Position numbers and translations under genes: made by a program
NCBI GenBank assembly: GCA_030622115.1
Contig: JAUXGN010000029.1
Location: forward strand, 1 to 32,156
Direction of reading: 5' to 3'
Source: Candidatus Eiseniibacteriota bacterium
GTDB taxonomy: Bacteria > Joyebacterota > Joyebacteria > Joyebacterales > Joyebacteraceae
DNA length: 32,156 nt
Shown here: positions 1 through 32,156 of the stretch, one piece after another
How positions within the stretch are numbered: the stretch's first letter is position 1
Layout: each line of letters opens with the position of its first letter
Notes under the pieces: generated by a model
Told to the model about the DNA's origin: nothing
The model's database searches: none
Seen by the model: only the letters and a program-made list of their open reading frames with translations

Positions 1-546
1 ACCCAGAACCCCTTTGTGCTCCTTGGAAAAGAAGAAGTAGATGAGCGTAGCGAAGATCCCCACAATGGCGATCGCGTTCAGCGTGATCTCGAGAGGGCCG
101 CCTGAGTTCTGGAACATGTTCATCGTCGCATGGATCTGGGCCACGAAATCGCCCTGCGCGAAACCCGTGATGTTCACCGCGGAGTACATCCCGACGATGA
201 ACCCGAGCGACCACCGTGACAACCAGGAGAGCTTCGGGAAGAAACGGAGTAGCATGAAGATGGCGAGGATTCCCGGGAAGATGCGAATCCACTGAACCGG
301 ATCCCCACTCTCCCCCGGAAACAGTGGAATGATCAGCTTCGGCACAAGAGTCTCGTGATAGAGGAGCGCGAGCCAGTACGCGGCCCCGACTCCCACGAAC
401 AAGCTCTCGGCGAACTTGTAGAGCGGGTTGTCCTTGTAGAGAAAGCTGTAGATGCAGATGGTCAGTATGGCAGCGACCCAGTAACCCCAGACCACGGAGG
501 GTGGCGTTCCGGGCGGACCGTTGAACAGCATGTGCAGCCAGCTCAT
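1..546 (-). CDS. Polytopic membrane protein D, cassette copy 1 (3' end cut off by window)
   Basis: Begins with ATG at 546 after a GAGGAAACC ribosome site and stays open to base 1, giving the first 182 residues; the homologous protein at 3298-3933 has 211, so about 40 residues are missing. Four to five hydrophobic helices are visible. It shares YSFLYKDNP, then YKFAE, PGIL, RFFPK, RWSLG and finally YFFFS followed by HKGVLG with the other copy, so the two are clear paralogues. The N-terminus is about 14 residues longer than in the copy. It starts 10 bases after the C1 gene and is the last gene of the tandem duplicated cassette seen here. No function is recognised; by context it is an integral subunit of an envelope complex with A, B and C. 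Confidence 0.85.
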   Translation of the reverse strand, partial: MSWLHMLFNGPPGTPPSVVWGYWVAAILTICIYSFLYKDNPLYKFAESLFVGVGAAYWLALLYHETLVPKLIIPLFPGESGDPVQWIRIFPGILAIFMLLRFFPKLSWLSRWSLGFIVGMYSAVNITGFAQGDFVAQIHATMNMFQNSGGPLEITLNAIAIVGIFATLIYFFFSKEHKGVLG

Positions 547-556
547 GGTTTCCTCA

Positions 557-1399
557 CTAGACGTCCTGTGCCAACCTCTTCTCCGAGCGTCGCGAGACGA
601 AGTAGACAATGTTCCCGAATATGATGAAGCACACGATCAGCGCATGAACGACCGACTGCGCATCCATACCGGATGTCGCATCACCCGGAGCACCGACGAG
701 GATCTCGTACTCGGCCGCGCCCTTGAGGCCACCGAGAAGACCGGTCAGCTGCCCGCTCTGAACGTAGGGATAGAAGTTCGGCGCCCCAACGGCCGTTGTC
801 CCGGAAGCGAGATTTACACGGAATCTGCTCTGAACCTGCTGAACCCACTCGCGGGTGCCTGGGGTACCTGCGGACACCTCCATGACGAATGCGATGTCAT
901 CAAAGTTCTCAACCTCCAGCATCAGAGGGATCTCATCCACCGACGTCCCACCGTAGTCGGTCGGGAAAGTCTCCGGGATGCTGGCTCCCATGCCCAGGAG
1001 CGTCACGATGCCGCCCGCCATGTAGCCAAGGTTCACGTAGTCTGTCCCATACTCCTTGCCGAACTCCTCGGACAACGGTCCGAGCGCCTGTTCTACCAAC
1101 GGCGGCGACGCCGGCCACAGACACGCAACGACGATCCTCAGATCCCTGCGAAACGCATGCCTGATGAATGTCTCTGCCATCGGCTGAAGCTCGGGCATTG
1201 TGTCCGGACTGTAGTCGGCCGCGAGCATGACGATCGATCCCGCAGGCACCGCCTCGACCGCGTCGTAGACGCTCTGTACAGGAGGAGAGATATCCATCGG
1301 CAGCCTGAGCGGATGAAGCAGCGGCCACACGACTGCAGCCAGAACCAACACGAAGATGAACCGTCGATCTATGTTCCTGATGTCGGATCCCTTGGCCAT
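557..1399 (-). CDS. Membrane-anchored alpha/beta protein C, cassette copy 1
   Basis: 280 residues. ATG at 1399 has GGAGATAAG upstream and sits 3 bases after the B1 stop. One N-terminal helix (about 13-33) follows a basic stretch, then comes a soluble alpha/beta domain (about 40-240), a second helix (about 249-268) and a basic tail. By the positive-inside rule the domain faces outside. Conserved with the copy at 4007-4852: YDA near residue 45, PEL near 69, RHAFR at 80-84, NFYP/DFYP near 208, then GQLTGLLGGLKGAAEYE (216-232) and GMDAQS before the last helix. No enzymatic motif is recognised. The GGLKG motif also occurs in protein A of the same cassette, which suggests a shared domain. Function unknown. 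Confidence 0.88.
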   Translation of the reverse strand: MAKGSDIRNIDRRFIFVLVLAAVVWPLLHPLRLPMDISPPVQSVYDAVEAVPAGSIVMLAADYSPDTMPELQPMAETFIRHAFRRDLRIVVACLWPASPPLVEQALGPLSEEFGKEYGTDYVNLGYMAGGIVTLLGMGASIPETFPTDYGGTSVDEIPLMLEVENFDDIAFVMEVSAGTPGTREWVQQVQSRFRVNLASGTTAVGAPNFYPYVQSGQLTGLLGGLKGAAEYEILVGAPGDATSGMDAQSVVHALIVCFIIFGNIVYFVSRRSEKRLAQDV

Positions 1400-1402
1400 C
1401 GG

Positions 1403-2047
1403 TTACTTATCTCCACCGAGATAGGAACGCTCGATCCCCAGGATAACGCGAAGTCCCATGGCCATCACCCCGAGAGCAGCACCCATCAGGATCCCGCGAA
1501 AGGCCGCCATGTTCGGGTAGGCCATGATCGTCTCCGTCAGCCACGGCAGCGTCGCCTGCTCGGGGAGTCCCCTCGTCAGGAACTGCCCCAACGGCACGCG
1601 GCCGAGCATAACAATGATGGCAGAGACCAGCAGCATGCCGGCCTCCAGCGAACGCAGCCTGAAAGCCCTGTAGGCGGCGGAAGCGATGAAAAACGCCAGG
1701 AGCGAGAACATCGTGCTCTGCAGCGGCACCTGTACATTGAGGAATATCCAGTTGAAGACAGATCCCTCCTGGATCGTGCCCCAGGGACCACCGAAGAAAA
1801 GCATGACTACCATCACCGACAAGGTCACGATGCTGTAGCCCCAACCTTCCTGCTTGCGGCTTATCTTCTTGTAGTGGACGCGGATGAGATTTCCGACACC
1901 GAGAAGGATCGACGCGGCTATCACGATCGTGCCCCACTGCTTCATCTCCGCAGCCGCCGAACTGACGACATGGTGCGGCACGAAAAAGTCAACGAGCATG
2001 AACATGCCGATCAAGAACGTTATCGCAAGTGGTATCACACGTCTCAT
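1403..2047 (-). CDS. Six-helix membrane protein B, cassette copy 1
   Basis: 214 residues, mostly hydrophobic, with about six predicted helices (near 5-24, 38-58, 75-95, 110-135, 145-163 and 180-200). ATG at 2047 follows a GGAG site and lies 15 bases after the A1 stop. The paralogue at 4899-5528 shares RVHY in the second loop, NVQVP, TMFSLLAF, ASAA, a basic AFR loop, IVMLGRVP and a C-terminal ILGIER. The conserved strings sit in loops and at helix ends, so they may be contact surfaces rather than simply hydrophobic filler. No known transporter or channel signature is recognised. It is probably an integral subunit working with proteins A, C and D. Confidence 0.88.
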   Translation of the reverse strand: MRRVIPLAITFLIGMFMLVDFFVPHHVVSSAAAEMKQWGTIVIAASILLGVGNLIRVHYKKISRKQEGWGYSIVTLSVMVVMLFFGGPWGTIQEGSVFNWIFLNVQVPLQSTMFSLLAFFIASAAYRAFRLRSLEAGMLLVSAIIVMLGRVPLGQFLTRGLPEQATLPWLTETIMAYPNMAAFRGILMGAALGVMAMGLRVILGIERSYLGGDK

Positions 2048-2062
2048 GAATCTCGACTCCGA

Positions 2063-3274
2063 CTACTGAGTTTGGAACCAGGCAACGAACGACTCAAGCC
2101 CGACGGCGCGCGCGATGATGCCCGCCGCAATAAGAGCGATGCTCACGACCTTCATCCAATCGGAACCCTTGAGTCCCCCAAGCAGCTTCGGTTCCCTGGA
2201 AAGATAGGCGCTCGCAGCATAGAGCTCCTCGCCCATCAGCGTGAAATCGCACGCCGTGACGAAGAAGGGAAGCTGCGAGACCATTGCAGTGCCGGCCACC
2301 TGGATGGCGCCGGCCTCAAAGCCGGTCTCCGCCAGAAGCAGCGACTCCGCCCAGAAGGCGCCCATGTAGAGGTTGGCCGCGGGCTTCTCCCGCAGCATAA
2401 TGCCGTTGACTGCCCCCGCGAAGGCGAACTGCGCGTCCGACAGGTATCGTATGTTGTCGGGATTGTAGGCATCGGGATTGCCGACCTCGGTGTAGGCCTG
2501 CTTCACGACTTCCTCCGCTGCGGACATGACGACTGCCCGGGCGGTCGGAACGATGAGGGGTGTGTCGTATCGTGCCGTAATCTTGGCAACGTGTGAGAGG
2601 ATGTTGAGGCTGGCAATGGTCATGATGTTGTCGATCTCGCCGATGCCTGGAACATACAGGACGGGGCGTCCCATCTCGGTGGCGCGCCCAACAGCCTCTT
2701 CGATGGCATTGAGACCGGGGATGCGCCGCACAAAGAGCTTCGCCCCCTTCCCGGCCACCGCTGTGAACCTCGCAACCATCGCGAAGAAAACGACCATCAG
2801 CACGAGAACTGAGAAACGGGACCACTGAAACAGGTTCGCGCGCCCGGCCGTGGGACCCGCCCACACGCGTCCGGATGGACTCGTGCCGTCGTGGGACACA
2901 AGGTTGTAGTAGTACTCGACGCCGGGCTCGACCGACTCGTCGATGTAGCGAGTGACGCCGCTCGATATCTCATCGAGCACCTCCCCCACTTCGCCTTCTG
3001 CGAGCGCGCGCGACAGTATGTAGCCCGTGACATCGCAGGCTCCGGAACCGTCATCCGGAGAGAGTCCCCACTCGATCTCGATCTTGTCGCCGAAGTCCGA
3101 GTTCTCAAGATAGTCGCGCACTGTGAGCGAGCACGGTGGACCGGGTGGAACCACGTCCAGAAGGACGGGCTCGGTCTCTTCTATTATCGGTGTGGCCTCC
3201 AGAGCCTCAAGGGATCCGGCCGCCGGCGCGATGAGCGCCAAAAGGACAAGCAGTATGTGGAAGACACGCCTCAT
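2063..3274 (-). CDS. Secreted-FnIII / DUF6754-like membrane protein A, cassette copy 1
   Basis: 403 residues. I chose ATG at 3274 because it follows GGCGGAG and opens a good signal peptide (residues 1-20); the reading frame stays open upstream, but that part lies over gene D2. Order: signal peptide, fibronectin type III-like domain (about 45-140, ending in a TYR/EYYYNL-type strand), transmembrane helix (153-172), basic GKGAKLFVRR, alpha/beta domain (about 185-360), then a GGLKG motif (366-370) before a last helix (375-395). The domain beginning at GRATEMG resembles what I recall as DUF6754; this is from memory. Topology suggests FnIII outside and the DUF domain in the cytoplasm. The paralogue at 5584-6828 matches strongly in the DUF part and weakly in FnIII. 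Function unknown. Confidence 0.85.
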   Translation of the reverse strand: MRRVFHILLVLLALIAPAAGSLEALEATPIIEETEPVLLDVVPPGPPCSLTVRDYLENSDFGDKIEIEWGLSPDDGSGACDVTGYILSRALAEGEVGEVLDEISSGVTRYIDESVEPGVEYYYNLVSHDGTSPSGRVWAGPTAGRANLFQWSRFSVLVLMVVFFAMVARFTAVAGKGAKLFVRRIPGLNAIEEAVGRATEMGRPVLYVPGIGEIDNIMTIASLNILSHVAKITARYDTPLIVPTARAVVMSAAEEVVKQAYTEVGNPDAYNPDNIRYLSDAQFAFAGAVNGIMLREKPAANLYMGAFWAESLLLAETGFEAGAIQVAGTAMVSQLPFFVTACDFTLMGEELYAASAYLSREPKLLGGLKGSDWMKVVSIALIAAGIIARAVGLESFVAWFQTQ

Positions 3275-3297
3275 CCGTACTCCGCCTGGTGCGGCTG

Positions 3298-3933
3298 CTA
3301 GATCAAGTGCAACCAGTCGTGCAACAGGAAGCTCACTCGCCCGATCAGAAGAGACACTCGCGACATCACCGTGTATCCAAATGATGCGCCGAAACCTACC
3401 ATCAGAAACACAATGCCCACTCTCGCCAACACACCGAGGACGCCCTTGTGCTTCATCGAGAAGAAGAAGTACGTGAGTGTTCCAAGAAGACCCACGATCA
3501 GAAACACGTTCGTGATCGATGTCAGCGGCAGTGCGTTCGCACCGATCTGATTCAGCACCCGCGCCTGCATAATGGGCGAAAGACCAAGCCCGGCGTAGCC
3601 GCCAACGTAGATGCCGAGCGACCAACGCCCCACCCATCCGAACTTCGGGAAGAACCGCGTGTAGAGCAAGAGGCCGAGAATACCCGGTATCAGAGCCAAC
3701 CACCACATGCTGCTCCCAAGCCCTATCGCCTCATTGCCGATCCGAAGCAGAAACACGGGCGCCACAACATTAGGCTGGATGAAGTTGAAGTAGTAGATAA
3801 CAAGGTAGTAGCCGGCGGAGATGCCGACAACCAGATGCTCGGCGAACTTGTAGAACGGGTTATCCTTGTACAGGAAGCTGTACACGGAGAGCGTGAGTAT
3901 TGCTCCGATCGTTGTCCAGATTATTGTCGCCAT
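3298..3933 (-). CDS. Six-helix membrane protein D, cassette copy 2
   Basis: 211 residues from ATG at 3933, which has a strong GGAGGAATTG site. An upstream in-frame extension to 4077 would overlap gene C2 and has no comparable ribosome site, so I rejected it. About six helices are predicted. Motifs shared with the paralogue at 1-546 include YSFLYKDNP, YKFAE, PGIL, RFFPK, RWSLG and YFFFS followed by HKGVLG. The segment after HKGVLG (residues about 168-211) is a long hydrophobic hairpin. It closes the first complete A-B-C-D unit and is followed 23 bases later by A1. No family with known function is recognised. Confidence 0.87.
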   Translation of the reverse strand: MATIIWTTIGAILTLSVYSFLYKDNPFYKFAEHLVVGISAGYYLVIYYFNFIQPNVVAPVFLLRIGNEAIGLGSSMWWLALIPGILGLLLYTRFFPKFGWVGRWSLGIYVGGYAGLGLSPIMQARVLNQIGANALPLTSITNVFLIVGLLGTLTYFFFSMKHKGVLGVLARVGIVFLMVGFGASFGYTVMSRVSLLIGRVSFLLHDWLHLI

Positions 3934-4006
3934 CAATTCCTCCAGCTGCTGCTTGCGGGTCACATTCCACGACCGCTCGTCGGCCGCGGCGCGGAAGAGC
4001 GAGGGA

Positions 4007-4852
4007 CTATGCCGCCTCCCTCTCCATCTGGCGTCTCTTCCGTCTGGCCCCGAAGTAGGCGATGTTGCCGAGAACAATCAGAGCAATGATCAGGATGTGG
4101 ACCGACGACTGCGAGTCCATGCCTCGAACTCCTTCATCGGGATGATCGATCAGCTCCTCGTACTCCGCCGCTCCACGCATCCCTCCCAGGAGCCCAATGA
4201 GCTGCCCGGTATCCAAGAACGGGTAGAAGTCCGTGGCCATGACCGCGGTGACACCGGCGCCGACGCGCTGCCCGTACGGTTGGTGCGCGTAGAGGACCCA
4301 CGCCTCAGCCGCCCCCCAACCCGCCAGACTGATGAGAAGAGGAATGTCGTCGTAGTTCCTGATGCCATCCATCATCGGGATATCATTGAGCGGGGTTCCG
4401 TAGGCATCTTCCGGAAAGACGTTCACGATGTTGACCCCCATGCCGAGAATGACGGCCGAGATACCTGGCCTGAATCCCAGGAAACAGTAGTCCTCACCGT
4501 AGACCTGCCCCATCTCCTCCGCCACCTTGTTCAACGCCCGTTCGGCCAGCCCGTAGCCGGCCGGATGCAGCGTCAGTACGGCTACATTGACGTCGTTCCT
4601 GAACGCGTGACGCAGAAGCGCCAGGGACATAGGCTCGAGTTCCGGCAGCGTTGCCGGCGCGTAGTCGATCGCCAGAAGAAGCGGCTGCCCGTTCGGTGGG
4701 ATCGCATCGAGTGCATCATACAGGTTCTGCACTGGCTCCGTCACGGAGATCGGTAGTCCCAAAGGAAAGAAGAACGGGATGACAACGGCGATTCCGATAG
4801 CAAGGAATATCCACCGGCGGTCTATGTTCATGAATCTCTCAAAAATGTTCAT
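4007..4852 (-). CDS. Membrane-anchored alpha/beta protein C, cassette copy 2
   Basis: 281 residues from ATG at 4852 with CCGGAGGTAGCG in front, almost the same length as the 280-residue paralogue at 557-1399. A longer frame to 4936 would run into gene B2. Layout: basic N-terminus, helix (about 13-33), soluble alpha/beta domain, helix (about 250-268), very basic tail (RRKRRQ). Conserved points are YDALDAIP (45-52), PELEPM (70-75), RHAFR (81-85), DFYPF (208-212) and GQLIGLLGGMRGAAEYE (216-232). The soluble domain is predicted to lie outside the membrane. There is no catalytic signature that I recognise. Confidence 0.87.
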   Translation of the reverse strand: MNIFERFMNIDRRWIFLAIGIAVVIPFFFPLGLPISVTEPVQNLYDALDAIPPNGQPLLLAIDYAPATLPELEPMSLALLRHAFRNDVNVAVLTLHPAGYGLAERALNKVAEEMGQVYGEDYCFLGFRPGISAVILGMGVNIVNVFPEDAYGTPLNDIPMMDGIRNYDDIPLLISLAGWGAAEAWVLYAHQPYGQRVGAGVTAVMATDFYPFLDTGQLIGLLGGMRGAAEYEELIDHPDEGVRGMDSQSSVHILIIALIVLGNIAYFGARRKRRQMEREAA

Positions 4853-4898
4853 CGCTACCTCCGGATGCCTAGACAGCGGCCCGCGAAATCGGGAACCG

Positions 4899-5528
4899 CT
4901 AGTCTCCGCCTCCCATCCATGCCCGTTCGATTCCAAGAATGATCTTGAGCGATGTCGCCATCATCCCGAGACCGACGCCTATCATGATTCCCCGCTTGGC
5001 GGCCAGATTGGGAACCTCGAGGATCCAGCGTGTGGCAACGGGAATCGAGCTGTGAATCATATCACCGATAGGAACACGGCCGAGCATGACGATGCAGGCC
5101 GCAACAAGAAGCAGGGTGGACTCGAGTGTCCTTGCCCTGAACGCCCTGAAGGCCGCTGACGCAACGTAGAATGCCAGGAGCGAGAACATCGTTGCCTCAA
5201 TGGGGACTTGGACGTTCTGGAACATCCTGTCGAACGGGGAACCCTGAGCGTGGTGCGCGGAGTGGAAGAACCCGAGCCCGATCATCAGACAGAGCGCAAG
5301 TAGCGTCACCAAACTGTAGCCCCGATCATCCGCCCTGTGTCTGATCTTGTGGTAATGGACCCGGACCAGGCTGACCGTCCCGAGGAGGAACGCAAAGGCC
5401 AGGAGGGTCTGCAACCATATGAGCAGCCGCTCGTACATATCCTGCACAGTAGGATGCGGGATGAAGTACTGAACTGCCATGAAGAGCCCCGCGATGAAAC
5501 AGAGGGCTAGTGGAAACTGACGACGCAT
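4899..5528 (-). CDS. Six-helix membrane protein B, cassette copy 2
   Basis: 209 residues, about six predicted helices, starting at ATG 5528 behind a GAGAGGA site. Paralogue of 1403-2047: both open with MRR and a hydrophobic helix and share the RVHY loop, NVQVP, TMFSLLAF, ASAA with AFR, IVMLGRVP and ILGIER. This copy carries a His-rich loop (FFHSAHHAQG) between helices 3 and 4 that is absent from copy 1, where the loop reads FFGGPWG. It is spaced 55 bases from A2 and 46 bases from C2, looser than in copy 1. Function unknown; probably a membrane subunit of the cassette complex. Confidence 0.87.
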   Translation of the reverse strand: MRRQFPLALCFIAGLFMAVQYFIPHPTVQDMYERLLIWLQTLLAFAFLLGTVSLVRVHYHKIRHRADDRGYSLVTLLALCLMIGLGFFHSAHHAQGSPFDRMFQNVQVPIEATMFSLLAFYVASAAFRAFRARTLESTLLLVAACIVMLGRVPIGDMIHSSIPVATRWILEVPNLAAKRGIMIGVGLGMMATSLKIILGIERAWMGGGD

Positions 5529-5583
5529 CGTACCATCCTCTCAGAATCGTCCCCGCGGTCTACCAACCGCCCGAGAACGCCAC

Positions 5584-6828
5584 CTAGCCTGTTGCAAACA
5601 CAGCGAGCATGAAGTTGCTCTCGATCACGCCTGTAGCCGTCAGCGTCGCGGCTATCACACCAACAACAAGGAACACCACGGTAATCAGCTTGAACATGTC
5701 CTGTCCCTTGAGACCACCCAGGAGGATAGGCTCTCTGGACAGGTACGCGCTCGCCGCGTAGAGTTCTTCTCCGATGAGCGTGTAGTCGCACGAGGTGATG
5801 AAGAAAGGCAGCTGGGTCACGGCGTCCGTTCCGGCGATCTGGATGGCGCCGATCGATGACCCCGTCTCCGCGAGAACGAGTGACTCCGCGTAGAACATAC
5901 CCATGTAGAGAATGGTCGCGGGGCGCTGACGAACCATGATCCCGTTGACGCCGGCAACGTACGCGAACTGGCTTCGAGTCAGATAGAAGACATCGTCCTC
6001 GTTGTAGGCATCAGGCCGACCGGCCTTGGCGTACGCCTCCTTGACGACCTCCTGCTCGACCGCCATCACGATCGGATCCGCGCAGGGAACGATGAGCTTC
6101 GTGTTGTACTCCGCCGTCTTCTTCGCGACCTCTCCCAGAATATTGATCGCCGCGATCGTCGCCACGTCGGACACTGAGGAGAGACCCGAGATGAAAAGGA
6201 TCGGCTTGCCCATCTCCGTCGCGCGGCCGACGGCGTTGTCCATCTCGTCGAGCCCTGCCAGGCGTCGGATGAACAGCTTCTTCCCGGACTTGGCAGCATT
6301 GACAAAGTAGAGAATCGATACAACGAAAATGATGACGGCCACGAGCGCATTCAAGCGAGACCGATTGAACCACTGGATGGAGGCTTCCACGGGGCCGAAC
6401 GTACCAGAGAAAAACGGTGACTCGTCCGCACCAAGGGCCGCCACCCGGTAGTATGTCGGTGCGCGGTTGTCCACGCTGCTGTCGCGGTACTCGGTCACCC
6501 CGAAGGGGACCCGCCCCACGAACGCAAAGCCCGTCTCCGGATGAGCGGATCGAAAAACCTCATACCCGGCGACGATGCCGTCCCCGTTATCGTCTGATGA
6601 CAGCTCCCATGTGACGTTGATGGAACTGCCACGGTCATTCGGCGTGTCGATGGCCGAGAGACCTGTGGGCGCCGCGACCAGCAAGAGCGTGTCCTGCTCG
6701 ACCGCTTCCACCTCTTCCTGCGCAGAGACCGCTACAGGGCATAAGAAAAGGGCCGCCACTGCTACGGAGAGCGCAACGAACCCAGTCCAAGGGCGTATGC
6801 CGCCAGACTGCCCTCTGTCACCGAGCAT
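5584..6828 (-). CDS. Secreted-FnIII / DUF6754-like membrane protein A, cassette copy 2
   Basis: 414 residues from ATG at 6828, chosen for its perfect AAAGGAG (6835-6841); the longer frame to 6906 reads through the predicted transcription start. Order: N-terminal signal sequence with a cleavage-like AVSAQ near 36, acidic linker, FnIII domain (about 52-148), helix (about 158-178), basic SGKKLFIRR, DUF6754-like alpha/beta domain (about 190-365) and last helix (about 379-400). Conserved with copy 1: GRATEMG, KLIVP/PLIVP, EVVK, NGIM, YMG, ESL.LAETG, AIQ.AGT, QLPFF, EELYAASAYLSREP and LLGGLKG. It is the first gene of the cassette operon, 75 bases from the promoter -10 box. Function is not recognised; an envelope scaffold or sensor role is possible but unproven. 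Confidence 0.86.
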   Translation of the reverse strand: MLGDRGQSGGIRPWTGFVALSVAVAALFLCPVAVSAQEEVEAVEQDTLLLVAAPTGLSAIDTPNDRGSSINVTWELSSDDNGDGIVAGYEVFRSAHPETGFAFVGRVPFGVTEYRDSSVDNRAPTYYRVAALGADESPFFSGTFGPVEASIQWFNRSRLNALVAVIIFVVSILYFVNAAKSGKKLFIRRLAGLDEMDNAVGRATEMGKPILFISGLSSVSDVATIAAINILGEVAKKTAEYNTKLIVPCADPIVMAVEQEVVKEAYAKAGRPDAYNEDDVFYLTRSQFAYVAGVNGIMVRQRPATILYMGMFYAESLVLAETGSSIGAIQIAGTDAVTQLPFFITSCDYTLIGEELYAASAYLSREPILLGGLKGQDMFKLITVVFLVVGVIAATLTATGVIESNFMLAVFATG

Positions 6829-6834
6829 CAACCG

Positions 6835-6841
6835 CTCCTTT
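6835..6841 (-). promoter_or_regulatory. Ribosome binding site deciding the A2 start
   Basis: AAAGGAG on the minus strand ends 6 bases before ATG 6828. No similar site precedes the upstream in-frame ATGs, so this sets the start. Confidence 0.75.
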
Positions 6842-6908
6842 CGTGCTTCCCGGAACATCGAGGACTCCCCGTGGAACCCTCGACGAACTCTCGATTCAAT
6901 TGCCAAGA

Positions 6909-6967: not shown

Positions 6968-8092
6968 CTACCCTTCGATCATCTCTACGTTCGCACGCGG
7001 CAGCACGGTCTCGGACCCGTCGGCGAGCTTCACCTTGAGAACACGGACCATCGACTCGGACTCCATCTTCTGGAGATCGTTCGGGAGTCCCGTGACAGTG
7101 CCGAGGCTTCCGAAGTGAGGCTCCCGGATGACACGGATGCTGCTTCCGATCTCGAGCCCCCCGGAACTCGACATGCCGTCGCCTGCGGGCAGCTCGGCAT
7201 CCGGCATCGGGATGACGATTTCAGGCCGCATAACACCGGCTCTTATCTGAGTCGCGCCGTTGATAGACGCCTTCTTCCCCTCCCTCGACTTCAGCAGACT
7301 GAACGTGCCTCCCGCCATGCCCATCGCGCCGAATCCTTCGGTCAGGATCAGTGTTGTCGCAATGTTCTCAGAACCGGTGATGGCGACACCCAGGTCCTTT
7401 CCAAGGAGCTTCTTGAGATCGGGGTCATCGAAGCCACCGACGACGATGCCGTTCACACCTATCTTCATCGCCTTCTCAAACCCGTCCCAATCGATGTGCG
7501 AACCGCCGATCACGACCTTGCCTTGCATCGACTCATCAAGGAGGGCGGCTTCGAGCTTCTGATCGGGGCCGTCGACGGCGACGCATATCTCCCCCGCCCT
7601 CTCCCCACCGACGCCGAAGATGCCCTGGATGAACGATCCCTTGACCTCGATCGCCACACCCTCGTTCTCGAAAACCTCAACCACTTCCCCGTCCACATAC
7701 GCGTCAACCTCGATCGGCATAGGAGGCTCGCGGAGGATAACCTGCCCCGTAATGGTAGAAATGCTCTCGAGAGTGCCGTCACAGGGCGAGTTGACGGTTC
7801 CTTTGAAGAAACCGAAGAACCCCTTCGTCACGGCGATCGGTTTTTCCTTCTCTATCGGATCCCCCGCCTTCTTGGTCATGACGGAGGGCAGATCCTCCGG
7901 CGGAAGGCCGAACTTGCTCGCGACATTGACTAGTCGCACGTTGCCGGGAAGATGCGTCCGTGCCACGACTGTGTCCGATGAGACGCGGTCGCCCTTCGAG
8001 ACGATCACATCTCCCTTGATGGGCAGACGGCGCTCCTTCCTGAGCACGGTCATCTCTGAAACTCGCAACCCTGGCGTATATGCGTGGGCCAT
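6968..8092 (-). CDS. GlmL-associated protein with barrel-sandwich-like N-terminus and KOW-like C-terminus
   Basis: 374 residues from ATG at 8092, behind GAGGAGAACAG. The N-terminal half (about 20-150) has the Gly/Val-rich pattern of a barrel-sandwich or RnfC-like fold: KGDVIVSKGD, SPCDGTLESIS and YVDGEVVEV. The middle (about 185-285) looks alpha/beta, with GKVVIGGSHIDWDGFEKA, GVNGIVVGGFDD and LILTEGFGAMGMAGGTF. The last 55 residues resemble a KOW/SH3-type barrel (GSSIRVIREPHFGSLGTVTG, then VLPRANVE). I recall proteins of this type next to GlmL-like ATPases but know no assigned function. It follows the GlmL gene by 39 bases, which argues for a joint role. No transmembrane segment and no catalytic motif are seen. 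It is the last gene before the cassette promoter. Confidence 0.8.
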   Translation of the reverse strand: MAHAYTPGLRVSEMTVLRKERRLPIKGDVIVSKGDRVSSDTVVARTHLPGNVRLVNVASKFGLPPEDLPSVMTKKAGDPIEKEKPIAVTKGFFGFFKGTVNSPCDGTLESISTITGQVILREPPMPIEVDAYVDGEVVEVFENEGVAIEVKGSFIQGIFGVGGERAGEICVAVDGPDQKLEAALLDESMQGKVVIGGSHIDWDGFEKAMKIGVNGIVVGGFDDPDLKKLLGKDLGVAITGSENIATTLILTEGFGAMGMAGGTFSLLKSREGKKASINGATQIRAGVMRPEIVIPMPDAELPAGDGMSSSGGLEIGSSIRVIREPHFGSLGTVTGLPNDLQKMESESMVRVLKVKLADGSETVLPRANVEMIEG

Positions 8093-8131: not shown

Positions 8132-9931
8132 CTACGCAGGGTAGGCGTCGAAGGCCTTCGCCCACTTCTCCAGCTTCTCAACGCGCTTGTGCTCGTCGGT
8201 CGGAAGCTCGAAAGGACGTCCTCTGGTATCCACCATGAGTCCAACCACACCGCCCGTGAGTGTGCACTCGAGCGGCTTGCCGGCCCCCTCGCCCAGATTG
8301 AACCCCTTCGCCGGGGTGAGCTTGGCTTTCACGGACTCGTCGACTCCGAGCGGGTAGACGACCATCTCACCGAACGGGATGTCGTCGTTCACGACCGTGC
8401 CGTTCGGCAGCGTCGTCTCTATCTTGAGGCAGGGCTTGCCCTCCTGAGAGGTCCCCACAGGAGCCACAAGCGTCCCAAGGTAGATAAGACAGTCCTTCTC
8501 AAACACCTCGGTAGCAGCCTTCTCGTGGACGGCCGCCAGAACTCCGAGCTGCGGCATCATGAAGATGGAGTCGACCGCCAGCTGTGTTATCCCCTCAGGC
8601 AGGAACGCATCTATCATCATGAGAGCGGCCTGCTGTCTCCGCGGAGCATGAGAGAGAACGCCGCCCGAGCCGACCAGAATGTCGAGGTCCATCATGTTGA
8701 CAAGCGTCTCACCCGAGGACGACTGACTGAAGGCCTCGGAGATGGTCCGCTCCTGCTGGACACCCTTCAAGCCAACGGCGAACGACTTGTGCTGAATGAA
8801 CGCCAGCCTGAGCGCCTCTCGCGCTATGGCCTGTTCGATCTTGAGGTCCTCAAGCGACTGCGGAACCGTTGTCGGCCGGATCATCTTGTTCTTGATCCGG
8901 TTCCGCACGGCCAGCTCCGGAAGCTTGAAAGGAACCCACCGCATGACGTTCTCGATCCCGGCCTCCGCCAGAACGTTCGAGACCGAGTAGCTCATGCCGA
9001 GGTTGGCGGAGACGGTCCGGTTGAAGGTGTGCTGAAAGACTGAGAAGATATCCGTCGTCGCTCCCCCGATATCGACGCCGACAACTTCGATCCCCCGCCT
9101 CTCCGCGATGGTCTCCATGATCGAACCGACGGCTCCGGGAGTCGGCATGATGGGCGAATCCGTCCAACCCATCAGCTTGTTGTACCCGGGCGCCTGCGCC
9201 ATGACGTGCTCCATGAAGAGTTCGTGGATCTCCTCCCTCGCCGGCCCGAGGTTCTCCCTCTCGAGAACCGGACGAAGATTGTCGACCATCGAAAGGGCCG
9301 TCTTCTCCTTCAGCAGGTCATCTACCTCGCCGCGCGCATTCACGTTGCCAGCGTAGATGACCGGGAGGTTGTACCCCATGCCAAGACGCGGCTTGGGATC
9401 GGCCGCGGCGACGACCTGGCCCAGCTCGACGACGTGCGTAACGGTCCCGCCGTCGATCCCGCCCGAGAGCAGTATCATGTCGGGCCTGAGATGTCTGATA
9501 CGCTCGATCTGCTCGTGAGGAAGCCTGCCGTCATTCGAAGCCAGGACATCCATCACGATGGCTCCTGCGCCCAACGCCGCTCTCTCCGCGCTCTCGGCCG
9601 TCATGCTCTTTACGACACCGGCCACCATCATCTGAAGGCCACCGCCGGCGCTCGAGGTGGACAGATAGAGATCGACACCCCGGTCTCCCTCGCTCGGATG
9701 GATGAACGTCTCCCCGTCGAGGATCGTGTGCCCGGAGAGTTCCTCCACCTCCCTGACTGCGTTCAACACACCTCTGGTCACATCCTCGAACGGAGCCTCG
9801 ACCGTTGTGGGCGCCTCTCCCCTGACGACGAGTCTGTACTCCCCGTCGATCAGCTTAATGAGGATCGCCTTGGTGGTCGTGCTCCCGCAGTCAGTGGCGA
9901 CTATGGTCCTGATCTTCCCGTTTTCACTCAT
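8132..9931 (-). CDS. GlmL/MutL-type ASKHA ATPase (no mutase nearby)
   Basis: 599 residues. ATG at 9931 is preferred over ATG 9952 because AGGAAGG lies just before it; the start overlaps the end of the previous gene (ATGAGTGA). The phosphate-binding loop DCGSTTTKAILI (14-25) and a second VDIGGATTDIF mark the actin/Hsp70/hexokinase-type fold. Length and motifs fit the MutL/GlmL family, named for the protein encoded with glutamate mutase GlmS/GlmE and thought to help maintain that B12 enzyme. No mutase subunit lies in this window, so the partner here is unknown. MLLSGGIDGGT and NLPVIYAGN mark further conserved strands. It sits downstream of gcvPB, apparently in one transcript with the glycine-cleavage genes. 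The gene symbol is left empty because the role may differ from GlmL proper. Confidence 0.85.
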   Translation of the reverse strand: MSENGKIRTIVATDCGSTTTKAILIKLIDGEYRLVVRGEAPTTVEAPFEDVTRGVLNAVREVEELSGHTILDGETFIHPSEGDRGVDLYLSTSSAGGGLQMMVAGVVKSMTAESAERAALGAGAIVMDVLASNDGRLPHEQIERIRHLRPDMILLSGGIDGGTVTHVVELGQVVAAADPKPRLGMGYNLPVIYAGNVNARGEVDDLLKEKTALSMVDNLRPVLERENLGPAREEIHELFMEHVMAQAPGYNKLMGWTDSPIMPTPGAVGSIMETIAERRGIEVVGVDIGGATTDIFSVFQHTFNRTVSANLGMSYSVSNVLAEAGIENVMRWVPFKLPELAVRNRIKNKMIRPTTVPQSLEDLKIEQAIAREALRLAFIQHKSFAVGLKGVQQERTISEAFSQSSSGETLVNMMDLDILVGSGGVLSHAPRRQQAALMMIDAFLPEGITQLAVDSIFMMPQLGVLAAVHEKAATEVFEKDCLIYLGTLVAPVGTSQEGKPCLKIETTLPNGTVVNDDIPFGEMVVYPLGVDESVKAKLTPAKGFNLGEGAGKPLECTLTGGVVGLMVDTRGRPFELPTDEHKRVEKLEKWAKAFDAYPA

Positions 9932-10298
9932 CGGCACCTTCCTCTGGTTCATCGGCCGCGCGCTTCATCTTCTTGCGCAGCCTCTTCTCTTTCCTGATTC
10001 TCTGCTGCTCCTCCGCCTCAAGCTCTTCAATGCGTCGGAGGAGACACTCCACGTTCTCCCGATCCTCCAGGAGCGTCATGACATCGTCGTAGCTCTTGAA
10101 GGTGAAGATGCTCTGAACGATGGGCTGAAAGAAGACCATCGTCTGATTTCCAAGAAACGACAGGGGCTTGGCAGACTCGATGAACAGGATCGCCGGGGCC
10201 GAGAGACGTCGCTCGACGATTTGCCGTGCGAATCGGTCCAGTATCTCAGACCGTTCCTTGTCCTTCGTCTCCTCCTTCGCCGCCTTCATCGACCACAT
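9924..10298 (-). CDS. Small highly charged protein with coiled-coil tail
   Basis: 124 residues. The first of two close ATGs (10298) has AAGGAGG nine bases upstream, so I use it, although the gene then overlaps the preceding one by 53 bases. A hydrophobic centre (RLSAPAILFIESAKPLSFLG, 30-49, then QTMVFFQPI) is flanked by charged sequence. Residues about 76-112 form a likely coiled coil that becomes very basic (RKEKRLRKKMKR), ending in an acidic tail. The central motif looks like a membrane-surface or partner-binding element. It lies between the PH-like gene and the GlmL-like ATPase and overlaps both, so translation is probably coupled. No known family is recognised. Confidence 0.75.
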   Translation of the reverse strand: MWSMKAAKEETKDKERSEILDRFARQIVERRLSAPAILFIESAKPLSFLGNQTMVFFQPIVQSIFTFKSYDDVMTLLEDRENVECLLRRIEELEAEEQQRIRKEKRLRKKMKRAADEPEEGADE

Positions 10299-29858: not shown

Positions 29859-32156
29859 GCCGAAACTCCCACGCGCCTGACCACGTGGGCAGCTAATCCC
29901 TTGTCCTCCACCAATCGCGAGAAGCCCGACTCAAGAGCATCGGTCCAGCGTGGATCGAAGAAGATACCATAGGTCTCTGCCTCAAAGCCACTCAACACCA
30001 CGGTCAGCCCCGCCTTGGCCGGACCCGACCACCTACGACCGGGAATCCCCGGCTCATCCGTTGCGAAATCGTTCCATTTCGACGCCCGGGCGAGTTCCCG
30101 CCTCACGACCGCTGCCACAGGCTCGCCCATCTCCATGCCCAACTGTCGACCCAGCTCACCGAGCAGTGCCAGGGTGTCGTTCCCGGCATCCACGACACGG
30201 GAGACCGACTGAATCCGTCGTTCGCTGTTGGTGCAAGTGCCGTCCGCCTCCGCAAGAGCGCCAAGCGGCAGTACGACATCGGCCAGCGCGGTAGTCGCGG
30301 TCGGGACCGAATCGGCCACAACAAGGAGATCGAGTCCCGAGAAAGCCTTCCGCACCCTCTCGGGGTCGCTCGAACCACCTACCGGATCCTCCCCGACTAT
30401 CAGCACTGCCCGGATGGCGCCGGACTCTATGCCTTCGAAAAGCGCGCTCGTATCACTATAGAGAGGAACCGGTACCGGCACTCCATACAGCGTTTCAAGA
30501 TCCGATCGCGATTCCTCGCAGACGGCCGACGACTGGCCGGGAAGCAGTAGCGGATCGAGCCCGACGTCTGCGATTCCCTGCCCGTTCGACTTCATCCTGA
30601 GGAAGAGAATGCCGGAGCCATCACCGGTCGCCTTGCCGCAGATCGCTGCAAGCGCTATGGCGCTCGCCGCATCCTGGTCAGATGTGGTCGCCGCGAACGA
30701 CGCTGAATTGGCGATCAACACACCCTTCTCCGCAGCGGCAAATACCTCGGCCGCGGTGCGGACCAGATCGGGCTCGATTCCGGCCGCGGATGCGATCCTG
30801 GCGAGACCACCGACGGGGAGCGACGCCAAGAGCTCATTCAATCCCTTGAGTCCGTACTGAAGGGCATCCACGTCCACGATGGATCCCGACAGAAGGTGAT
30901 CCAACATGCCGTTCAGAAAACCGCCAAGAGCATCCCGATCCACTTGGATCCACGTATCGGCCAGCCGCGCCATGCGCGTCTTCCGTGGCGATACGACAAA
31001 GAGCCGGGCCCCTCTTCTCACTGCGTTTCTCACTGCAATGCCCGCGATCGTCTGCTCCTCCGCAATGTCGGAGTCTATGAGCAGGATAACGTCCGCACCT
31101 CTGACATCATCATAGGAGGCAGTCGAAGCAGCATATCCAAGCGCGTGCCTCAGTGCGCCGAAGACTGCACTCTCCGACGCCGCGCCGAATGAACCCACGT
31201 TGGGGGTTCCGAGACCGGCTCTGGCCAGCTTCTGCAGTCGATAGGCTTCCTCGTTCGTCAGACGCGGCGAGCCGAAAACAGCGATGGATTCAGGTCCCGA
31301 ACTCCGGGACGCACTCGTGAATCCGCTGGCAGCGCGCTCAAGCGCGTCGGGCAGGCCCACTTCGTTGAGACCGGCGCCCCCGCGCACGAGCGGTCGGGTG
31401 ATGCGCTCCCCGCCATAGAGCGCGTGGAAGCCGAATCTTCCGCGAACACAGAGATTCCCCTCATTGACACCCGCTGCCGCAGGCGTCACCGACACGAGAT
31501 CTCCGGCGATCGTGTTGAGGGTCACGGCGCATCCGGTTCCGCAGAAACCGCAGATCGAATCCGTTGTCTCGTAGTCCCACGGCCCCGGCTTGATCGCAAG
31601 AGGCCTCTCGGAGATCGCCGCCGTGGGACAGGTCGTGACACATTGCCCACACGACTCGCACTCGGTCGAAGCCAGAGGCAGATTCAAGCTGGGCTTCATC
31701 TGGGCGCTGAATCCTCGATTCAGGAAACCGAGGGCCGATGCCCCCTCCACAACCTCGCATATGCGTATGCAGCGGCCGCACATGATGCACTTCTCGGGCT
31801 CGATGCGAATGAACGGGTGCCGCTCGTCAGGTAGATCATCGACCATGTCACCCGGAAACAGGTAGGGTCTAACATCGTACTCGGCCGAATGTGTTCTCAG
31901 ATCACAGGTGAACGCATCCGTACATCCACATTCGAGACAGCGCTTGGTCTCCTCAAGCGCCTGCTCCTCCGTTAACCCAAGGTCCACTTCTCCGAAAGTG
32001 TGAATACGCGTCTCGACGGGAAGCTCCGGCATCTCCTGACGTTCCTGGGCCGGCACGTCCTTGAGTTCATCCTCCGGGAAGTGATCCCAGCGCTCCTTCT
32101 GAGCGTTGAAGAAAGGTGGCAGACTGTCGATCTTGCCGCCGCTCAGCATCCTGTCG
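29855..32156 (-). CDS. Iron-sulfur / molybdopterin-type (NuoG/FdhA-like) oxidoreductase, 5' part outside window
   Basis: At least 764 residues; the frame is open to the window edge and ATG 32149 has no ribosome site, so the start probably lies outside. Numbering from that ATG: residues 50-90 (EEQALEETKRCLECGC, C82) look like the C-terminal end of a GltD-type FAD oxidoreductase; then two [4Fe-4S] sets C121/124/127/131 and C164/167/170/174; then the molybdopterin-family N-terminal cluster C200/203/207/234 and ERITRPLVR. The family region TNEEAYRLQKLARAGLGTPN is followed by VGSFGAAS, without the Cys or Sec that binds molybdenum in formate dehydrogenases. This resembles NuoG-like electron-transfer subunits. 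Likely a NAD(P)H-linked electron-transfer protein; the exact partner is unknown. Its stop overlaps the next promoter. Confidence 0.85.
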   Translation of the reverse strand, partial: DRMLSGGKIDSLPPFFNAQKERWDHFPEDELKDVPAQERQEMPELPVETRIHTFGEVDLGLTEEQALEETKRCLECGCTDAFTCDLRTHSAEYDVRPYLFPGDMVDDLPDERHPFIRIEPEKCIMCGRCIRICEVVEGASALGFLNRGFSAQMKPSLNLPLASTECESCGQCVTTCPTAAISERPLAIKPGPWDYETTDSICGFCGTGCAVTLNTIAGDLVSVTPAAAGVNEGNLCVRGRFGFHALYGGERITRPLVRGGAGLNEVGLPDALERAASGFTSASRSSGPESIAVFGSPRLTNEEAYRLQKLARAGLGTPNVGSFGAASESAVFGALRHALGYAASTASYDDVRGADVILLIDSDIAEEQTIAGIAVRNAVRRGARLFVVSPRKTRMARLADTWIQVDRDALGGFLNGMLDHLLSGSIVDVDALQYGLKGLNELLASLPVGGLARIASAAGIEPDLVRTAAEVFAAAEKGVLIANSASFAATTSDQDAASAIALAAICGKATGDGSGILFLRMKSNGQGIADVGLDPLLLPGQSSAVCEESRSDLETLYGVPVPVPLYSDTSALFEGIESGAIRAVLIVGEDPVGGSSDPERVRKAFSGLDLLVVADSVPTATTALADVVLPLGALAEADGTCTNSERRIQSVSRVVDAGNDTLALLGELGRQLGMEMGEPVAAVVRRELARASKWNDFATDEPGIPGRRWSGPAKAGLTVVLSGFEAETYGIFFDPRWTDALESGFSRLVEDKGLAAHVVRRVGVSA

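Follow-up and report, generated by a model that had tools for sequence, protein, structure and literature searches.

What is encoded by the eight consecutive minus-strand genes with which contig JAUXGN010000029.1 (C20) of a Candidatus Eiseniibacteriota bacterium begins? The stretch analyzed here (the window) comprises the opening 32 kb of this contig, from base 1 to base 32,156, in an assembled genome of 2.6 Mb. A preliminary description of the window had read the eight genes as a tandemly duplicated four-gene membrane cassette, A-B-C-D twice, which was preceded by one promoter and encoded an envelope complex that could not be matched to a known system. Our comparisons across genomes indicate that these eight genes encode the membrane portion of a conserved module with six components, M-E-(A-B-C-D)n, where M is a putative ATPase and E a predicted cytosolic protein, both encoded just upstream.

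All 10 genes lie on the minus strand, in the order M, E, A1-B1-C1-D1, A2-B2-C2-D2, with intergenic gaps of about 3 to 110 bases. M (8132–9952) and E (6968–8092) are followed by A1 (5584–6858), B1 (4899–5528), C1 (4007–4852), and D1 (3298–3933), and then by A2 (2063–3274), B2 (1403–2047), C2 (557–1399), and D2 (1–546), a gene whose 3′ end is missing because the contig ends there. The paralogous pairing that had been claimed for the eight genes is borne out by these coordinates, by protein identities of 44% for A, 49% for B, 44% for C, and 44% for D (over the part present), and by direct DNA repeats in the cassettes (70–74% identity, spaced by about 3.4–3.5 kb). A third complete A-B-C-D set was found in the same genome, on contig C61. 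The single promoter is not supported: the number of sites in a promoter scan was close to that in shuffled sequence, with none immediately ahead of A1, and upstream of A1 the same-strand genes run on through E, M, and a group of glycine-cleavage genes. No RNA elements were found. Another contig of this genome, C72, opens with a D gene (L011, 1–653) that is 90% identical to D2 and has a different start; genes for a lipoate ligase and a TonB-type receptor come next, and this contig may be the continuation of the window contig from a strain variant.

Profile hidden Markov model searches assigned A to the DUF6754 family and gave no family match for B, C, or D. The occurrence of the four families was compared in 61 genomes, 20 from the window's family and one from each of 41 other families. 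A is present in 31 of these, and the profiles of B, C, and D returned the same set of genomes, except for one incomplete genome without C; a single weak and partial match to B outside this set was taken as chance. Outside the window's family, A, B, C, and D are all present in 11 of the 41 genomes and all absent from the remaining 30 (Fisher p 3e-10), which shows that the four families do not occur independently of each other. The same holds for the two upstream genes. E was detected in 28 of the 61 genomes and M, at a threshold of E ≤ 1e-60, in 27, and every one of these genomes also has A–D. In the other families, E is found in 10 of the 11 genomes with A–D versus 0 of the 30 without (p 1e-8), and M in 9 of the 11 versus 0 of the 30 (p 2e-7). 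The A–D genomes that lack E number three, two of them fragmented assemblies and the third G049, which is discussed below.

Gene order is conserved as well, and a tabulation across genomes showed that A-B-C-D is kept in dozens of loci from other families. B, C, and D follow A at 94 of 118 A genes (a count that includes some loci fetched twice), and nearly all the others lie at contig ends; exceptions to the order occur in L104, L108, and L109, where A is alone or doubled. Among 40 further loci, 38 keep A-B-C-D, and two have an isolated A, with B elsewhere in the genome. Variants of the arrangement include adjacent A-A pairs (L108, L168, and L184), extra copies of C (L095, L184, and L185), and triple cassette arrays (L159 and L161). 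The extra C genes stand in tandem after D, at 6826–7776 in L184, 5100–6044 in L095, and 3266–6013 in L185, where there are up to three. In many lineages, M-E immediately precedes A; in the 40 further loci, the pair is directly upstream in 11 and directly downstream in two. Moreover, E and M are joined in a single open frame at a locus from Cloacimonadota (L115), and the window's own genome carries a second M-E paralogue, which is fused and encodes 882 residues (L157, 3514–6159, on contig C97). Based on co-occurrence with A–D, adjacency, and fusion, we assign E and M to the module. The linkage of A–D in the preliminary description stands, and the unit, with E and M upstream, is larger than the four genes proposed there.

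Fused M-E paralogues also occur in other members of the window's family, and the gene beside the one in L157 (1366–3510) encodes a protein with an inserted segment resembling CarboxypepD_reg and TonB-plug domains. Neighbor scans across phyla revealed no recurrent neighbors other than M and E, and ABC genes near the cassettes were limited to 2 and 3 scattered matches among 240 neighbors in two scans. LptA/LptC-like genes were seen near cassettes in about three genomes and genes for periplasmic binding proteins in three (L041–L119). Upstream of M, members of the window's family have the glycine-cleavage genes T, H, P1, and P2 (10719–15129 in the window), and a lipoate ligase gene follows the second cassette, which places the module among genes of lipoate-dependent metabolism there.

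M (606 residues) is a full-length member of the GlmL/MutL family, which belongs to the ASKHA group, with a score of 427.8 bits to PF13941 (E 6e-128). Its DCGSTTTK, DIGGATTD, and GSGG motifs are intact and are conserved in 16 diverse members. Relatives of M across phyla share 61–87% identity with it, except for two divergent members (41% and 49%). E (374 residues) has a region resembling a barrel-sandwich hybrid (RnfC_N/Biotin_lipoyl) and a C-terminal KOW-like motif. The RnfC_N match is weak; at E ≤ 0.1 it was obtained for 17 of 22 members, the best of which had E 2e-5. KOW was matched in two members.

A1 (424 residues) and A2 score 408.8 bits (E 9e-123) and 381 bits (E 3e-114) against PF20539, for which the curated cut-off is 27, and A3, from the third set, matches with E below 1e-110. 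Pfam describes PF20539 only as a domain of unknown function. A1 consists of a signal or transmembrane (TM) segment, an Fn3-like ectodomain, a TM helix, a Rossmann-like DUF6754 domain, and a C-terminal TM helix. Hydropathy and the positive-inside rule predict an external Fn3 part and a cytosolic DUF6754 domain. The AlphaFold2 model of A shows a confident Fn3 domain and an α/β domain, and a Foldseek search with this model returned only Fn3 domains as best matches. The Fn3-like ectodomain is present in most members and absent in three loci, whereas in Cloacimonadota and some others the region preceding the DUF6754 domain reaches about 600–900 residues. According to conservation computed over 127–147 sequences per family, E215 of A is invariant, and R212, E215, E325, E331, C357-D358, and E364-E365 are nearly invariant polar residues. 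A B12-binding Rossmann domain was considered for A and rejected, as the DxHxxG motif was not seen in the A sequences.

Searches with profiles of B, C, and D gave nothing in Pfam, NCBIfam, or the Protein Data Bank (PDB) beyond scattered weak matches, and, in keeping with the preliminary description, no characterized complex was matched by A–D in these databases. B1 (209 residues) has six predicted TM helices and D1 (211 residues), which is polytopic and has an invariant glutamate (E32), about five to six, both by hydropathy; B and D were compared as possible paralogues of each other, and this was rejected. The AlphaFold2 model of C1 (281 residues) is confident, with a predicted local distance difference test score (pLDDT) of 92 and a predicted template modeling score of 0.84, and consists of a TM helix, a Rossmann-like domain, and a second TM helix. 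The charge rule predicts that the Rossmann-like domain is extracytoplasmic. Nearly invariant polar residues in C are E71, H82, D149, E230, E232, and H252; the invariant residues in A and C are enzyme-like. In L199 (G154, 3472000–3488000), the two halves of the B gene are split by a large in-frame insertion (608-residue frame), far from an A gene that adjoins E.

The age of the two cassettes was assessed with a tree of concatenated A–D sequences, calculated under a mixture model. The three cassettes of the window's family each form their own clade (100), and one branch (starred in the tree) separates type X, containing cassettes 2 and 3, from type Y, containing cassette 1; these names were assigned after the tree was seen. 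Tandem pairs in Zixibacteria, G028, and G053 each consist of one X and one Y cassette. Lineage-specific duplication was rejected by the approximately unbiased (AU) test, both for cassettes 1 and 2 in the window's family (p 6e-5) and for the pairs elsewhere (p 1e-50 for G053 and 8e-5 for G028). Thus, calling the locus a tandem duplication is misleading: the two paralogous sets are adjacent, but they are anciently diverged types rather than recent copies. With X and Y adjacent in Eisenbacteria, Zixibacteria, and two further families, the tandem pair is an old, maintained unit, which favors a hetero-complex or a division of labor. The earlier suggestion of an envelope complex in two versions, forming a hetero-complex or serving two substrates, fits the occurrence of both types across phyla, although the data do not discriminate between the two options.

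We propose that M and E drive a heteromeric A-B-C-D membrane complex by ATP hydrolysis, and we put the probability of this reading at roughly 40%. In the proposed mechanism, M would bind and hydrolyze ATP in the cytosol, with E as an adaptor that connects M to the DUF6754 domain of A. An ATP-dependent conformational change would then pass via A to the membrane core formed by B, D, and C, so that a substrate would be moved or processed at the cytoplasmic membrane. In this organism, the heteromeric core may contain one type-Y and one type-X cassette, while the third cassette may serve a second complex. The ectodomain of A, ranging from absent to about 900 residues, could be a lineage-specific docking or recognition arm. 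The proposal draws on the joint occurrence and conserved order of the genes, the M-E fusions, the ancient pairing of X and Y, the invariant residues of A, C, and D, and the high conservation of M with its motifs.

Several observations weigh against this proposal. A–D are present in G049 where E and M are not detectable, and in G026, E was found but no M passed the threshold. M and E are located away from the cassettes in several genomes, and in one genome A adjoins E with B far off. The model of the DUF6754 domain, an α/β Rossmann-like fold, is only partly confident (mean pLDDT 75). This domain and the Rossmann-like domain of C have a similar order of strands and helices, but for homology between them a first profile comparison gave P 0.004 and domain profiles a nonsignificant P 0.07. 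A Foldseek search of the C model against the PDB yielded no match at E ≤ 1e-3, the best being generic Rossmann domains, and Rossmann-like folds are no guide to function. Finally, the evidence for physical association is indirect and consists of co-occurrence, gene order, and fusion; ATP hydrolysis and a substrate are presumed.

The enzyme-like residues also suit a different explanation, in which A and C are catalytic or cofactor-binding parts of a membrane-bound enzyme. Its target would be a lipid, glycan, or lipoprotein at either face of the membrane, with B and D as the substrate-binding subunits, and the role of M-E would be to activate or repair the enzyme rather than to power transport. 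The many nearly invariant polar residues in DUF6754 and C speak for this, as do the weak best Foldseek matches of C, which are to nucleotide-sugar and dinucleotide-binding Rossmann domains, and the fact that ASKHA relatives include reactivating ATPases. Still, no catalytic or cofactor motif was recognized, all structure matches have E > 1e-3, and two batches of neighbor scans showed no recurrent enzyme neighbor; we regard such an enzyme as a serious but improbable competitor. That M belongs to PF13941 could, in turn, mean that M and E are accessories of a B12-dependent glutamate (methylaspartate) mutase or of an ornithine pathway and that A–D are unrelated neighbors. M does belong, over its full length and with its ASKHA nucleotide-binding motifs, to the family of the proteins that NCBIfam names accessory_GlmL and GlmL-related ornithine degradation protein Or-4, but its score of 229.5 bits falls well short of the GlmL equivalog cut-off of 475, and it is far below the Or-4 cut-off too. 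Furthermore, no match over the cut-off to methylaspartate mutase E, the catalytic subunit of glutamate mutase, was found in the 61 genomes, and both M and E are confined to genomes with A–D and tied to a membrane module. The glutamate mutase accessory role of M was rejected on these grounds, and this explanation is very improbable.

With the Fn3 arm of A reaching across the periplasm, the complex could be a trans-envelope energizer or coupler for outer-membrane receptors, similar to TonB or Tol systems. The long A ectodomains in Cloacimonadota are compatible with this, and downstream of the second cassette, the window's family has the lipoate ligase gene and a gene for an outer-membrane protein resembling TonB-plug and CarboxypepD_reg proteins. 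Likewise, a very divergent A′B′C′D′ set (L158, 263–3380, on contig C47 of G049) is followed by genes that we named by eye as encoding a lipoate-protein ligase, a TonB-dependent receptor, ExbB, and two ExbD proteins. However, such receptor neighbors do not recur in other phyla, and B and D lack similarity to ExbB/TolQ/MotA. Because LptD is not clearly more frequent with A–D (6 of 11 genomes outside the family) than without (11 of 30) and the ectodomain is dispensable, being missing in three loci, a trans-envelope role is not our first choice and seems unlikely; the link to TonB-type receptors and ExbBD may nevertheless provide a lead. A second extremely divergent A′B′C′D′ set was found in L190 (7933–11012). 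Restriction of the module to diderms of the lipopolysaccharide type was also considered and receives no support from the LptD comparison. An equally unlikely alternative is a structural scaffold, in which M polymerizes or docks like FtsA and PilM, other ASKHA proteins at the membrane, and arranges A–D as a platform in the envelope that serves adhesion, division, or an appendage. The ASKHA type of M (PF13941) is in line with this, tandem cassettes of two types and up to six A genes per genome in some carriers would suit a hetero-oligomer, and Fn3 ectodomains are common among surface-facing adhesive or docking proteins. On the other hand, no pilin, divisome, or secretion genes are recurrent nearby, and the sequence of M is GlmL-like, not FtsA/PilM-like.

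The ATP-driven complex that we favor resembles several known systems in part. Rnf and Na+-NQR likewise have polytopic membrane subunits, and their RnfC/NqrA barrel-sandwich hybrid domain may have a counterpart in the weakly matched region of E, but no Fe-S, flavin, or NADH-binding features were recognized in the module, and searches of Pfam and the PDB with the B and D profiles gave no match to RnfA/D/E, NqrB/D/E, or PDB membrane proteins. ABC transporters, TonB-ExbBD, Tol-Pal, type II secretion systems and type IV pili, Lpt, and Mla also have inner-membrane parts with extracytoplasmic arms, several with a cytosolic ATPase. Yet none of the six proteins matched subunits of these systems in profile searches, A–D gave no match to ExbB/TolQ/MotA-like or ExbD/TolR-like families, and the putative ATPase of the module is of the ASKHA type, as opposed to ABC or AAA. 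The Pfam entry for DUF6754, of which A1, A2, and A3 are members, covers the domain only and does not state a linkage of six components. In composition and architecture, the module matches no known system among those compared.

We found no papers mentioning DUF6754, and keyword searches on related work gave nothing relevant. Of 386 bacterial genomes sampled, 113 carry DUF6754, and 14 well-known model genomes all lack it, which would explain the lack of study. Among named lineages, the carriers of the module are Eisenbacteria, Zixibacteria, Cloacimonadota, and Planctomycetota (Phycisphaerae), and possibly Armatimonadetes, judging from a partial contig. Somewhat doubtfully, the module may represent a new class of primary-energized membrane machine, a translocase or an enzyme, that is powered by an ASKHA-type ATPase via a barrel-sandwich/KOW adaptor, is widespread in uncultured phyla, and has two anciently paired cassette types. 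By its family name alone, M would be taken for a glutamate mutase accessory protein; treating the genes as a unit makes one testable system out of six families that are unknown or misleadingly named, and this system probably plays an important part in the envelope of Eisenbacteria, Zixibacteria, Cloacimonadota, Planctomycetota, and others.

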